DNA from: Allokutzneria sp. NRRL B-24872
Lineage (GTDB): Bacteria; Actinomycetota; Actinomycetes; Mycobacteriales; Pseudonocardiaceae
Length of the DNA: 64,000 bases
Direction: 5' to 3'
NCBI RefSeq assembly: GCF_002155965.1
Contig: NZ_MUMH01000010.1
Coordinates: forward strand, 1-64,000
The notes beneath the pieces were generated by a model that was given only the letters and a program-made list of their open reading frames with translations, was not told where the DNA came from and searched no databases. Below are positions 1 to 44,622 of this stretch, one piece after another. The first letter of the stretch is position 1; every line of letters begins with the position of its first letter. A program made the position numbers and the translations under genes.

Positions 1-351
1 GACGGTAGAAGCTTGGAAATAAAATAGTAGGACTTCCGAGTGAACCGGTACCAGTCGTCCCTGTGACCCCGCTCATGCGGAGTGTTCGCCAGCTCAGCTC
101 AGCGTGGTGAGGTCGCCTTCGACGGGGGTGACGAGCGGCCCGGTCGAGGCTCAGCGCAGCACGATGTCGCTGATCCGCCAGCGACCGTCGACGCGGCACT
201 CCTCCGGCAGCGCCCGCTCGTCACCCCCGTCGAAGGCGACCTCACCACGCTGAGCTGAGCTGGCGAACACTCCGCATGAGCGGGGTCACAGGGACGACTG
301 GTACCGGTTCACTCGGAAGTCCTACTATTTTATTTCCAAGCTTCTACCGTC
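1..351. repeat. Perfect 138-bp inverted repeat (arms 1-138 and 214-351)
   Basis: Base i pairs with base 352-i without a mismatch for 138 bases. The first non-pairing position is 139 against 213, so the unpaired centre is 75 bases (139-213). The outer end cannot be seen because the arm begins at base 1. The right arm carries the leader of the next gene, so that leader is mirrored. On the minus strand, 285 down to 151 is an open frame ending in residues GRWRISDIVLR and a TGA stop, which looks like the tail of a real protein but lacks an upstream start. The repeat could be a fold-back artefact at a contig end or a true inverted duplication continuing to the left. Confidence 0.95.
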
Positions 352-367: not shown

Positions 368-3300
368 GTGTCCGAGCTGCACGTTCCCGTGAACCCGGTG
401 CGCTTCGTGACCGCGGCGAGCCTGTTCGACGGGCACGACGCGTCGATCAACATCATGCGGCGCATCCTGCAGGCCCAGGGCGCGGAGGTGATCCACCTCG
501 GGCACAACCGCTCGGTCGACGAGATCGTCACCGCCGCCGTGCAGGAGGACGTCCAGGGCATCGCGATCAGCTCCTACCAGGGCGGGCACGTCGAGTTCTT
601 CGGCTACCTGGTCGACCTGCTGCGCGAGCGCGGCGCCGGGCACGTCAAGGTCTACGGCGGCGGGGGCGGCGTGATCGTCGCCGAGGAGATCGCGCACCTG
701 CACGAACGCGGTGTGGCGCGGATCTTCTCGCCGGAGGACGGCCAGACCATGGGCCTGGCGAAGATGGTCAACTCGATGGTCGCCACCTGCGACGTGGAGC
801 TGGAGCCGCTGCCACTGACCGGGGTCTTCCACGGCGAGCAGGCCGCGCTGTCCAGGGCGATCACCCGCATCGAGCGCGGGGGCCTGACCGAGGACGAGCG
901 CGCCGAGCTGCACAAGGCCGCCGCTGGCCGGGACGTGCCGGTGCTGGGCATCACGGGCACCGGTGGCTCGGGCAAGTCGTCGCTGACCGACGAGCTGGTC
1001 CGGCGCTTCCGCATCGACCAGCAGGACAAGCTGAGCATCGCGGTGATCGCGGTCGACCCGAGCCGCCGCAAGGGCGGTGGCGCGCTGCTGGGCGACCGCA
1101 TCCGGATGAACTGCCTGGACGGGGACCGGATCTTCTTCCGCTCGCTGGCCACCAGGGGCGCGGGCACCGAGCTGCCGACCGGCCTTGCCGACGTGATCTC
1201 CGCGTGCAAGGCGGCCGGGCACGACCTGGTGATCGTGGAGACCCCCGGTATCGGCCAGGGCGACGCCGCGATCGTGCCGTTCGTCGACGCCTCGCTGTAC
1301 GTGATGACGCCGGAGTTCGGCGCCGCGTCGCAGCTGGAGAAGATCGACATGCTGGACTTCGCCGACGCGGTGGCGATCAACAAGTACGAGCGCAGGGGTG
1401 CCGAGGACGCGCGCCGCGACGTGGCCCGCCAGCTGGTGCGCAACCGCGAGGCGTTCGGCTCGCCGCCGGATGAGATGCCGGTCTACGGCACGAGCGCGGC
1501 GACCTTCAACGACGACGGCGTGACCGCGCTCTACCAGTACCTGCGCGACATGCTGACCTCGCACGGGCTGAAGGCCGCCGAGGGCGTGCTGCCGCAGGTC
1601 ACCGGCAAGGCGTCGACGCGGATCGCGCAGATCATCCCGTCCGCGCGCGTGCGCTACCTCGCGGAAATCTCCGAGTCGGTGCGCGGCTACCACACCGAGA
1701 CCGCGAAGCAGGTGGAGATCGCCCGCCGCCGCCAGCAGCTCGCTGCGAGCAAAGCCTTGGTGGAGGGGCGAAGCGGCGAGACCGGCGTGCTGGAGCAGCT
1801 GCACACCGAGGCGGAGCGGGAGCTGGCGGCGGACAGCCACGCGCTGCTGGAGGACTGGCCGAAGACCGTCGAGGCGTACTCGGCGGACGAGCTCGTGGTG
1901 AAGGTGCGCGACAAGGAGCTGCGCACGCAGCTGTGGCGCGAAACCCTGTCCGGCTCAAGGATTCCGCGCGTCGCGCTGCCGCGCTACACCGATCACGGTG
2001 AGCTGCTGCGCTTCCTGCGCGCGGAGAACCTGCCTGGCCGTTTCCCTTTCACCGCAGGCGTTTTCCCGTTCAAGCGGGACGGCGAGGACCCGGCGCGGAT
2101 GTTCGCGGGCGAGGGCGATCCCTTCCGCACCAACCGCCGCTTCCACTTCCTGTCGTCGGACTCCAAGGCCACCAGGCTCTCCACCGCCTTCGACTCGGTC
2201 ACCCTCTACGGCCGCGACCCCGACGAGCGCCCCGACATCTACGGCAAGGTCGGCACCTCCGGCGTCTCGATCGCGACGCTGGAGGACATGAAGGTGCTCT
2301 ACGGCGGCTTCGACCTGTGCTCGCCGAGCACCTCGGTGTCGATGACGATCAACGGCCCGGCGCCGACGATCCTGGCGTTCTTCCTCAACGCCGCCTTCGA
2401 CCAGCAGGTCGCGAAGTTCGCTGAGGACAACGGTCGCGCGCCGTCGGAGGAGGAGTCGGCGGAGATCGCCAAGACGGTCTTCGCGACGGTGCGCGGCACG
2501 GTGCAGGCCGACATCCTCAAGGAGGACCAGGGCCAGAACACCTGCATCTTCTCCACGGAGTTCTCGCTGCGGATGATGGGCGACATCCAGCAGTGGTTCA
2601 TCTCCAACGGGGTGCGCAACTTCTACTCGGTGTCGATCTCCGGCTACCACATCGCCGAGGCCGGGGCGAACCCGATCAGCCAGCTGGCCTTCACGTTGGC
2701 CAACGGTTTCACCTACGTGGAGTCCTACCTGGCGCGCGGGATGGACATCGACGACTTCGCGCCGAACCTGTCGTTCTTCTTCTCCAACGGCATGGACCCG
2801 GAGTACTCGGTGCTCGGCCGGGTCGCGCGGCGGATCTGGGCCGTGGCGATGAAGAACCGCTACGGCGGCAACGAGCGCTCGCAGAAGATGAAGTACCACG
2901 TGCAGACCTCGGGCCGCTCGCTGCACGCGCAGGAGATGGACTTCAACGACATCCGCACCACGCTGCAGGCGCTGATCGCGATCTACGACAACTGCAACAG
3001 CTTGCACACCAACGCCTTCGACGAGGCGGTGACCACGCCGACCGAGGACTCCGTCCGCCGCGCGCTGGCCATCCAGATGATCATCAACAGCGAGTGGGGC
3101 CTGGCGCGCAACGAGAACCCGTTGCAGGGCGCGTTCATCATCGACGAGCTGACCGACCTGGTCGAGGAGGCCGTGCTGGTCGAGTTCGACCGGATCAGCG
3201 AGCGCGGCGGCGTGCTCGGCGCGATGGAGACCGGCTACCAGCGCGGGCGCATCCAGGACGAGTCCATGCTCTACGAGCACCGCAAGCACGACGGCTCGCT

Positions 3301-3592
3301 GCCGATCATCGGCGTGAACACCTTCCGCAACCCGCGCGGGTCGGAGGCGGCCGGGCCGATCGAGCTGGCGCGCGGCACCGAGGCGGAGAAGCAGTCGCAG
3401 CTCACCCGGCTGCGCGAGTTCCACCGGGACAACGCCGACACCGCCGAGGCCGCGCTGAAGCGGCTGCGCGAGGTCGCCATGGGCGAGGGCAACGTGTTCG
3501 CCGAGCTCATGCGCGCCGCGCGGGTCTGTTCGCTCGGCCAGGTCACCGAGGCGTTCTTCGAAGTCGGCGGCCAGTATCGTCGGAACGTCTGA
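368..3592 (+). CDS. icmF: Fused isobutyryl-CoA mutase IcmF
   Basis: A 1074-residue fusion enzyme that interconverts isobutyryl-CoA and n-butyryl-CoA with adenosylcobalamin. The B12-binding domain is N-terminal (DGHDAS near residue 22). A MeaB-like G-protein chaperone domain follows, with P-loop GTGGSGKSS (197-205) and base-recognition motif NKYE (338-341). The mutase barrel is C-terminal. Aligned with human methylmalonyl-CoA mutase from memory, the two residues that set substrate choice (Tyr89 and Arg207) fall on Phe566 and Gln723. This is the pair known from isobutyryl-CoA mutases, not methylmalonyl- or pivalyl-CoA mutases. His761 in SGYH is the conserved active-site histidine. The GTG start has GAGGAG upstream. 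Length matches the IcmF family (about 1,090). It is first in an operon with the next two genes. Confidence 0.95.
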   Translation: MSELHVPVNPVRFVTAASLFDGHDASINIMRRILQAQGAEVIHLGHNRSVDEIVTAAVQEDVQGIAISSYQGGHVEFFGYLVDLLRERGAGHVKVYGGGGGVIVAEEIAHLHERGVARIFSPEDGQTMGLAKMVNSMVATCDVELEPLPLTGVFHGEQAALSRAITRIERGGLTEDERAELHKAAAGRDVPVLGITGTGGSGKSSLTDELVRRFRIDQQDKLSIAVIAVDPSRRKGGGALLGDRIRMNCLDGDRIFFRSLATRGAGTELPTGLADVISACKAAGHDLVIVETPGIGQGDAAIVPFVDASLYVMTPEFGAASQLEKIDMLDFADAVAINKYERRGAEDARRDVARQLVRNREAFGSPPDEMPVYGTSAATFNDDGVTALYQYLRDMLTSHGLKAAEGVLPQVTGKASTRIAQIIPSARVRYLAEISESVRGYHTETAKQVEIARRRQQLAASKALVEGRSGETGVLEQLHTEAERELAADSHALLEDWPKTVEAYSADELVVKVRDKELRTQLWRETLSGSRIPRVALPRYTDHGELLRFLRAENLPGRFPFTAGVFPFKRDGEDPARMFAGEGDPFRTNRRFHFLSSDSKATRLSTAFDSVTLYGRDPDERPDIYGKVGTSGVSIATLEDMKVLYGGFDLCSPSTSVSMTINGPAPTILAFFLNAAFDQQVAKFAEDNGRAPSEEESAEIAKTVFATVRGTVQADILKEDQGQNTCIFSTEFSLRMMGDIQQWFISNGVRNFYSVSISGYHIAEAGANPISQLAFTLANGFTYVESYLARGMDIDDFAPNLSFFFSNGMDPEYSVLGRVARRIWAVAMKNRYGGNERSQKMKYHVQTSGRSLHAQEMDFNDIRTTLQALIAIYDNCNSLHTNAFDEAVTTPTEDSVRRALAIQMIINSEWGLARNENPLQGAFIIDELTDLVEEAVLVEFDRISERGGVLGAMETGYQRGRIQDESMLYEHRKHDGSLPIIGVNTFRNPRGSEAAGPIELARGTEAEKQSQLTRLREFHRDNADTAEAALKRLREVAMGEGNVFAELMRAARVCSLGQVTEAFFEVGGQYRRNV

Positions 3593-8048: not shown

Positions 8049-8258
8049 GCGAACGGCTCCTTTGACGCGTTGAACGCACTGAACGACCCGTTCAGGGCTC
8101 CCAGCGCACTAAACGGGTCGTTCAGGGCTCAAGCCCGCGAACCCCGCTGGCCACCACGCGAGCTCGCCGCGAATGCCGCGTTTGGTCCGTTGAACCACCT
8201 GAACGAGTCATTCAGTGCGTTCAAGTACCTGAATGAGTCATTCAGGGCTTCAGCGGCG
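8049..8258. repeat. 30-bp-period palindromic repeat array
   Basis: Seven 30-base units begin at 8049, 8079, 8109, 8139, 8169, 8199 and 8229. Four of them (8079, 8109, 8199, 8229) start with a 17-base palindrome: CTGAACGACCCGTTCAG, CTAAACGGGTCGTTCAG, CTGAACGAGTCATTCAG and CTGAATGAGTCATTCAG. The units at 8049 and 8169 share a second form (GCGAAYGSC...TTTG...CGTTGAAC). The unit at 8139 is degenerate. The array lies between a plus-strand operon end and a minus-strand gene end. A further pair with the same palindrome and the same 30-base spacing occurs at 44523-44569. Confidence 0.85.
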
Positions 8259-14560: not shown

Positions 14561-16678
14561 ATGCACACGCTCCACTGGCTGCTCGTTCCGGCGCTCACGC
14601 TGTCCTCGACGGCCATCCCCACGTCCGAGCACGGCGTCCCGCACGTCGTCGCGAGCGACCACGCGGGCCTCGGTCGCGGCATCGGCCACGCCCAGGCGCG
14701 CGACCACCTCTGCGCGCTCGGCCAGATCTTCTTGTCCACCAGGGGTGAGCTGGCCGAACACTTCGGCGAGGAGCGCACGGCGGCCACCCCGCCGCAGGGC
14801 AACGTCGCCTCCGACGTGTACACCCGCGACCTCATCGCCCGCCGCGTCGTCGAACGCATCGTCGCGCAGCCAGCGCCGGTCGGCCCCTCCGAGGACGTCC
14901 GCGCGCTCACCAGGGGCTACGCAGAGGGCTACAACCGGTTTTTGGCCGAGACCAAGCAGAACTGCCGTGGACTGACTCGAATCACCGAAATGGACGTCCA
15001 CCGCCTGAAGTACATCAGCGCGCAGGACGGAGCGATCCGCGCGCTCGGCGGCATCGTCACCGCGACCCCACCGAGCCGCCCGCAGGCACCGCAGAGGCCG
15101 TCCGCCCCGGAGATTCCCCGTGGTAGCAACGCGATCGCCGCGGGCAAGGTGTTCTTGGGCAACCCGCACGTCCCGTGGCGCGGGATCGCGTCCTTCTGGC
15201 AGGCGCGGTTGACCATCCCCGGCAAGCTCGACGTGGACGGGGCGAGCCTGCTCGGAACGCCCGAGACCGTCGCGGGCTACACGCGTCACACCGCTTGGGC
15301 CGCAACGATCGCGACGTCGCTGAGCTACGCGCTGGCCGAGGTGAAGCTCGTCCCTGGCGACCCGACCGCGTACACAGTGGACGGTCGCGTGGAGCGGATG
15401 ACAGAGCACAAGATCACCGTCGACGTGCGCGGTGGCAAGCCGGAGACCCGTTCGCTGTGGTCCACCCGCTACGGCCCGGTGATCACCTCCATGGTGGTCA
15501 GCCCGTGGCTCGGCGAGCGCGCCGCGGAACGACTCGATTGGACCGCCGAGCGAGCTTTCGTGCTCGTCGACGCGAACGCGAAGTCGTTGCGGGGAGCCAA
15601 CTCCATGGTGGAGTTCCCTCGCGCTGAGTCGGTCGAGGACCTGCGGAGGTCGATCTTCGCCAACGGCGGCATGTCCTACGCGAACGTGGTGGCGAGCGAC
15701 CGGCACGGCAAGGGGCTCTTCGCCAACGTCCAGGCCGTCCCGCACATCACCGACGCGCACGCCCGCCGCTGCAACACCGCCAAGGGACGCGAGCTGTTCG
15801 AGCGCGCGGGCCTGCCCGTGCTGGACGGCTCGCGAGCGGACTGCGCGCCCGGTACCGACCGCGATTCCCTTGTGCCAGGCACGTTCGGCGCGCACCGCAT
15901 GCCCAACCTCATCAGCACCGATCAGCTGTCGAACTCCAACGACTCGCACTGGCTGACCAGCGTGAAGCAGCCCCTCAACGGCTTCCCCCGCGTCTTCGGC
16001 ACCGAGGGGACCGCACGCTCACCGCGCACGCGCTTCGGCCTCCAGGAGCGCGTGACAAGCCTTCGCGACGCACAGGAGATGGTGCTGTCCAACCGATCCT
16101 TCATGGGCGAGCTGGCCGTAGACGACGTGCTGCGCATGTGCAAGTCCATGCCGCAGCACGAGAAAGCCTGTGACGCGCTCGCGAAGTGGGATCGCCGCAA
16201 CGATCTCGACAGCCGTGGCGCCCTGCTGTTCGACGAGTTCTGGCAGGAGATCGGCGACATCCCTTGGCTGATCCCGTTCAACCCCGCCGACCCCGTCCGC
16301 ACTCCGCGCGCGCTCGACATCGACAACCCGCGCGTGCGGGCCGCCTTCACCAAGGCCGTCACCTCGCTCGGCCACGCGCCCGACGCACCAGTCCGTGATC
16401 ACCAGTTCGCCTTGAACAGCAAGGGAAAACGCGTCCCGATGCACGGCGGGGACAACGCGCTCGGTGTCTACAACCTCATCGAGACCACGTCGGAGGGCCA
16501 GGCGGTCGGCGGCACCAGCTTCCTGTTCGCGGTGCGGTTCACCGGAAACGCGTGCCCAGAAGCACGAACGATCTTGGCGAACTCGCAGTCCAGCAACCCG
16601 GCTTCGCCGCACTTCTCCGACCAGACCGAGCTGTTCGCGGCCAAGCGGTGGCTGCCGGGGCGGCTGTGCCGGGGCTGA
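14561..16678 (+). CDS. Penicillin/AHL acylase-family Ntn-hydrolase
   Basis: A 705-residue precursor of an N-terminal-nucleophile amidase. A short hydrophobic N-terminus suggests export. The alpha part contains HGVPHVVASDHAGLGRGIGHAQARDHL. Self-cleavage is expected before Ser189 in PRGSNAIAA, which would become the beta-chain nucleophile. HxPW follows (GNPHVPWRG), as in PvdQ/QuiP-type acylases. Family substrates include acyl-homoserine lactones, beta-lactams and lipopeptides; the actual one cannot be told from sequence. It starts a block of secreted enzymes and diverges from the transhydrogenase gene. Confidence 0.87.
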   Translation: MHTLHWLLVPALTLSSTAIPTSEHGVPHVVASDHAGLGRGIGHAQARDHLCALGQIFLSTRGELAEHFGEERTAATPPQGNVASDVYTRDLIARRVVERIVAQPAPVGPSEDVRALTRGYAEGYNRFLAETKQNCRGLTRITEMDVHRLKYISAQDGAIRALGGIVTATPPSRPQAPQRPSAPEIPRGSNAIAAGKVFLGNPHVPWRGIASFWQARLTIPGKLDVDGASLLGTPETVAGYTRHTAWAATIATSLSYALAEVKLVPGDPTAYTVDGRVERMTEHKITVDVRGGKPETRSLWSTRYGPVITSMVVSPWLGERAAERLDWTAERAFVLVDANAKSLRGANSMVEFPRAESVEDLRRSIFANGGMSYANVVASDRHGKGLFANVQAVPHITDAHARRCNTAKGRELFERAGLPVLDGSRADCAPGTDRDSLVPGTFGAHRMPNLISTDQLSNSNDSHWLTSVKQPLNGFPRVFGTEGTARSPRTRFGLQERVTSLRDAQEMVLSNRSFMGELAVDDVLRMCKSMPQHEKACDALAKWDRRNDLDSRGALLFDEFWQEIGDIPWLIPFNPADPVRTPRALDIDNPRVRAAFTKAVTSLGHAPDAPVRDHQFALNSKGKRVPMHGGDNALGVYNLIETTSEGQAVGGTSFLFAVRFTGNACPEARTILANSQSSNPASPHFSDQTELFAAKRWLPGRLCRG

Positions 16679-44502: not shown

Positions 44503-44522
44503 CTCAGCGGTGCTCTTACTCC

Positions 44523-44569
44523 CTGAATGACTCATTCAGGTGGTTGAGCGTGCTGAATGAGTCATTCAG
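44523..44569. repeat. Two palindromic repeat units, 30-base spacing
   Basis: CTGAATGACTCATTCAG (44523-44539) and CTGAATGAGTCATTCAG (44553-44569) are 17-base palindromes whose starts are exactly 30 bases apart. Both sequence and phase are the same as in the array at 8049-8258. They lie in the divergent hutH / IclR promoter region, so they may influence regulation or simply be a landing place for the repeat. Confidence 0.85.
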
Positions 44570-44622
44570 GGAGCTCGGCGCACCAATTGGGGGATGGGGC
44601 GGATCGGGACGGAGGAGGGCGC

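Follow-up and report, generated by a model that had tools for sequence, protein, structure and literature searches.

A 138-bp inverted repeat upstream of icmF very probably reflects a fold-back artefact where a short-read draft contig ends

Contig edges that overlap themselves occur in assemblies built from word graphs. A second kind of artefact, inverted chimeric molecules that arise during the preparation of sequencing libraries, is described for human DNA (PMC10908179). The locus studied by us shares traits with both, and it departs from both in the make-up of its centre.

The window, i.e., the 64,000 nucleotides of DNA that we analysed, opens with an inverted repeat that a first-pass annotation had reported to be perfect, with arms of 138 bp and a centre of 75 bases. 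This description is exact: bases 1-138 are the reverse complement of bases 214-351 at 138 of 138 positions, and the window contains no other perfect inverted repeat of this length (the runner-up has 21 bp). The same annotation had remarked that the left arm reaches base 1, so that its outer end is hidden, and had advised inspecting the parent assembly to the left of this base. The window corresponds to positions 1-64000 of contig C2 (67,719 bases) of the draft genome G000 (475 contigs, 8.19 Mb, 95% complete); its base 1 is base 1 of this contig, and the repeat thus touches a contig edge. For this reason the left arm has no visible outer end, and base 351 is a mere mirror of the edge without any biological boundary. 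The features of the region are as follows.

1-138, minus strand: left arm, which repeats the icmF promoter and the Uma2 gene end in inverted form and is read by us as artefactual; exact reverse complement of 214-351 that starts at the contig edge
135-217, minus strand: chimeric centre, including several bases from either arm, composed of an Uma2 N-terminal fragment and the last codons of a gene located beside rpoB; 83 bp identical to contig C346, and at the protein level one part aligns with Uma2 of G002 and the other with its rpoB-side protein
214-258, plus strand: 3'-terminal part of a Uma2-family gene (PLVTPVEGDLTTLS, then stop); translation, and collinearity with the terminus of the G002 gene, the product of which matches Pfam PF05685
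214-351, plus strand: right arm, native, with the Uma2 gene end and the icmF promoter; window bases 215-1000 align at 92% to G002
310-327 or, delimited more widely, 310-337, plus strand (mirror copy at 25-42 or 15-42): conserved palindromic promoter motif; motif searches
368-3592, plus strand: icmF, a fused acyl-CoA mutase; open reading frame with Pfam matches to B12-binding, MeaB and MM_CoA_mutase

Two genomes of the same genus, G001 and the one-contig genome G002, were used for comparison. The 92% alignment of window bases 215-1000 to G002 covers DNA upstream of and into icmF, and the corresponding alignment to G001 begins at base 264. Among the stretches compared, the arm matches a single place in each relative, upstream of icmF, and genome-wide searches of G001 and G002 returned no second promoter match. 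When window bases 1-2000 were searched against G000, no second icmF start was found among the best 40 of 743 candidates scored; once hits to C2 and to the centre on C346 are set aside, this set holds matches of 29-43 bases. The 3' end of the Uma2-family gene, PLVTPVEGDLTTLS and stop at bases 214-258, reads TLVTPVDIDLTALS and stop in G002. G001 is devoid of an Uma2 gene at the icmF locus, and a response regulator is encoded there directly upstream of icmF. These comparisons with the relatives show the right arm to be native DNA of the icmF locus, comprising the 3' end of the Uma2 gene and the icmF promoter. Leftward of the arm, the relatives possess genes for a response regulator and a histidine kinase, whose counterparts in G000 reside on C346. 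The mirror promoter, and perhaps a mirror icmF, that had been envisaged to the left of the window is not supported by this arrangement; the most likely native left neighbour, located beyond the Uma2 gene, is the two-component system now found on C346.

In contrast to the right arm, the centre is foreign to the icmF locus. The 83 bp at 135-217 recur without a difference on the minus strand of C346 near 91.5 kb, and the coding strand of C346 reads GWPLGDVRALPEECRVDGRWRISDIVLR, then stop, across it. The first half of this peptide aligns with the N-terminus of the G002 Uma2 protein (GWTLADVQALPEDCRVE), and its second half aligns with the C-terminus of a G002 protein encoded beside rpoB (RADGRWRISDIVLR). 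The latter protein has no Pfam match; from the look of the neighbouring genes, we take it to be Mce-associated, and the gene name rpoB is likewise our assumption, based on the N-terminal sequence. Adjacency of the tail gene to rpoB is found in G002 only; G001 possesses the same tail gene, with no rpoB within the 4 kb fetched around it. The centre accordingly unites two loci at a place where the relatives show a different neighbour, and chimeric sequence has replaced the native one. By these alignments it is a chimera of an Uma2 gene start and the tail of the rpoB-side gene. At the junction of bases 213 and 214, both parents agree in 11 of 12 bases (GGTGACGAGCGG versus GGTGACGTGCGG), a similarity that suits template switching.

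Long perfect inverted repeats are generally known from hairpins, from the ends of linear replicons and from the ends of mobile elements, and the repeat at the start of C2 might in principle be a functional structure of one of these types. We regard this as extremely improbable, since the arm consists of an ordinary gene end and a promoter and lies well within the single contig of G002. Because of this internal position, we rejected a hairpin telomere and a linear replicon's terminal inverted repeat. Within G000, C2 and C346 alone carry the centre, and its gene-tail part has only one matching site in either relative, a distribution unlike that of a dispersed repeat, so that we rejected a mobile-element end as well. 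Moreover, perfect inverted repeats of at least 24 bp occur in just two of 37 actinobacterial icmF upstream regions, and both measure exactly 24 bp.

The surroundings of the centre on C346 bear directly on its origin. The first 1473 bases of the corresponding locus, L003, match the DNA upstream of icmF in G001 and G002 at 91-92% and encode the histidine kinase and the response regulator (Pfam); from base 1629 to 2969, the locus instead matches G002 at 95% on the rpoB side. The zone in between, bases 1474-1629 of L003 or about 91.45-91.61 kb of C346, is where the apparent misjoin lies. Hence, the 83-bp chimera in C346 fuses the natural left-hand neighbours of icmF to rpoB. In G002, the two joined places are located near 7.235 and 5.654 Mb, 1.58 Mb apart, and their genes share one strand. 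A single contig of G001 carries icmF and the tail gene at a distance of 1.73 Mb, likewise in the same orientation. A simple join of the type seen in C346 would delete everything between the loci, icmF included. A real rearrangement fusing the response regulator locus to rpoB is disfavoured by the same-strand positions in G002, and by comparison with the gene order of the relatives, C346 looks misjoined.

The bodies of the two genes that contributed to the chimera were sought in G000 by homology searches, and these revealed no orthologous body of either the Uma2 gene or the rpoB-side gene in the assembly. Among the best 150 of 187 candidates, residues 1-64 of the rpoB-side gene are encoded at bases 5-190 of C454, where the coding sequence breaks off after residue 64, at a distance of 5 bases from the contig edge, and a 41% paralogue is present on C168; C454 continues collinearly with the rpoB-side locus of both relatives. 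For Uma2, seven matches were obtained (30 of 30 candidates scored), with the best long match, on C28, being 44% identical and a stretch of 38 residues on C437 being 53% identical. These data fit together: one chimera spans two holes in the assembly, and the fold-back of C2 turns on that same chimera.

Could the repeat nevertheless be a real inverted duplication, formed in the cell through template switching and carrying two short copied pieces as its spacer? Such events, as a matter of general knowledge, leave perfect arms around a patchwork spacer, along with short words of similar sequence where the pieces meet, and an assembler would be expected to break at the outer end of an arm if this were a true repeat boundary, as happened here. 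However, the same chimera joins the genes upstream of icmF to rpoB, which in G002 would amount to a deletion of about 1.58 Mb that includes icmF, yet icmF is present. Furthermore, the arm is single-copy in the relatives, and a second icmF start was missing from the best 40 of 743 candidates in a genome that is 95% complete. We therefore consider a real inverted duplication very unlikely. Genuine template switching in the strain, or in part of the culture, with the icmF promoter inverted around a two-locus spacer and the response-regulator locus joined to rpoB, strikes us as just as unlikely.

Collectively, the inverted repeat is very probably an assembly or library fold-back artefact at a contig edge of a short-read draft, a reading supported by the sharing of its centre with C346, a contig that joins loci 1.58 Mb apart in G002, and also by the self-complementary contig edges and the adapter-like end of C470 described below. 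Both this possibility and a real duplication had been offered by the first-pass annotation, to which the chimeric nature of the centre was not visible; the former has gained from the contig edge and the chimeric centre, the latter has lost ground with the single-copy arm in the relatives. In the true chromosome, the remainder of the Uma2 gene, followed by the response regulator and histidine kinase genes of C346, would adjoin C2 from about base 214. The body of the Uma2 gene and most of the rpoB-side gene would have been left unassembled, and a chimera of the Uma2 start and the rpoB-side gene tail would have filled the place of the missing bodies. In C346, this chimera would falsely bridge the icmF-upstream and rpoB loci; in C2, the path would leave icmF, cross the chimera, re-enter the icmF promoter in reverse and halt at base 1. 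The chimera itself may stem from library preparation, through template switching at short similar words, or from the assembler having bridged regions of poor coverage; the exact step that produced it, and the halt of the path after 138 bases, are points that we infer. Some considerations weigh against an artefact. The 138-bp overlap is an outlier among the self-complementary edges of the draft, the other seven of which measure 16-22 bp, and a set of 20 right-hand edges yielded no such word; since two contigs share the chimera, it presumably had numerous reads behind it, as a real junction would also give; and the gene order on which our argument relies is that of the relatives, with the rpoB adjacency coming from G002 only, while the presumed lack of the gene bodies derives from homology searches.

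We surveyed 86 of the 950 edges of the 475 contigs for a terminal word of at least 16 bp with its reverse complement inside the same 1500 bases; 16 loci out of a set of 80, all from small contigs and consisting entirely of N, were left out. Eight of the 86 edges are self-complementary in this sense versus one of 5000 random pseudo-edges within the window: the left edge of C2 (138 bp), the right edges of C2 and C19 and the left edge of C80 (16 bp each), the left edge of C8 (18 bp), the left edge of C450 and the right edge of C346 (21 bp each), and the right edge of C10 (22 bp). Besides C2 left, seven of 85 edges therefore fold back, all of them briefly. Seven cases came from the first 65 edges and one (C346 right) from the last 21, among which a set of 20 right-hand edges contained no self-complementary word. 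An overlap of exactly 21 bases links two pairs of contig edges, and two of the self-overlaps have the same length, which would fit word-graph assembly.

Several other observations on the draft were made along the way. Edges L162, L170 and L194, as well as L142, L158 and L167, open with common short words (TACGAGACAGCCCTTA; TGAGGACAGGCCCTAG), so that short dispersed repeats are a further cause of breaks in the assembly. At the end of C470, the final 19 bases (15744-15762) resemble the Nextera mosaic end with two mismatches and apparently represent untrimmed adapter; they are the sole genome match at up to three mismatches, and a reversed control gave none. A short palindromic word of the CCTGAATGACTCATTCAGG type forms a 21-bp stem at window positions 8227-8247 and recurs 36 kb away at 44519-44573, and its core, AATGAGTCATT, has eight further occurrences in 118 other loci of G000.

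Of greater interest than the inverted repeat is the palindrome in the icmF promoter, which is conserved across Actinomycetota. Its consensus is about TASTWGGAMRTCCWASTA, with the core GGAMRTCCWASTA. Allowing one mismatch and up to 300 bp upstream of icmF, this core is present at 31 of 37 actinobacterial loci and at none of 42 other loci or 79 in-gene controls, a count that is not independent, because the core was drafted after viewing the same 37 loci. The count used 79 of 80 icmF loci, leaving out one with fewer than 150 bases upstream. A longer pattern, fixed before G000 was searched with up to two mismatches (reversed control, 0), was found at four loci: with two mismatches each before icmF and at one site on C465, and without any mismatch before genes for an aldehyde dehydrogenase (C429:6822-6839) and an acyl-CoA dehydrogenase (C437:151077-151094). 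The aldehyde dehydrogenase presumably resembles methylmalonate-semialdehyde dehydrogenase. Taken together, the palindrome is possibly the operator of a small regulon for the breakdown of isobutyryl-CoA or valine. The titles and abstract openings of the papers listed in our searches on the motif make no mention of it.

For users of this draft genome, no mirror promoter and no inverted duplication of icmF should be annotated at the start of C2, and the sequence to the left of about base 214 is not to be trusted. Contig C346 is flagged as misjoined too, so that claims on the gene order of this draft near icmF or rpoB should not be relied upon. A real event would have made a clear case of a patchwork inverted duplication in an actinobacterium; as matters stand, the repeat is almost certainly without value as evidence of a real duplication in this bacterium.

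When set against the known kinds of artefact, the start of C2 resembles the self-overlaps of word-graph assemblies in that its terminal word, like those of eight of 86 edges in all, recurs in reverse complement within the same 1500 bases. It differs from the other seven edges, with their 16-22 bp, through its length of 138 bp and its chimeric centre. A word-graph collapse is insufficient as the whole cause, the 11 of 12 bases shared at 213/214 being fewer than the 21-base overlaps of contig edges. The likeness to the library chimeras lies in a strand that runs on into its own inverted complement after the pairing of short complementary stretches (PMC10908179). Those chimeras come from human DNA and from natural inverted repeats or palindromes, whereas the centre described here derives from two other genes and is known from the assembled contig alone.
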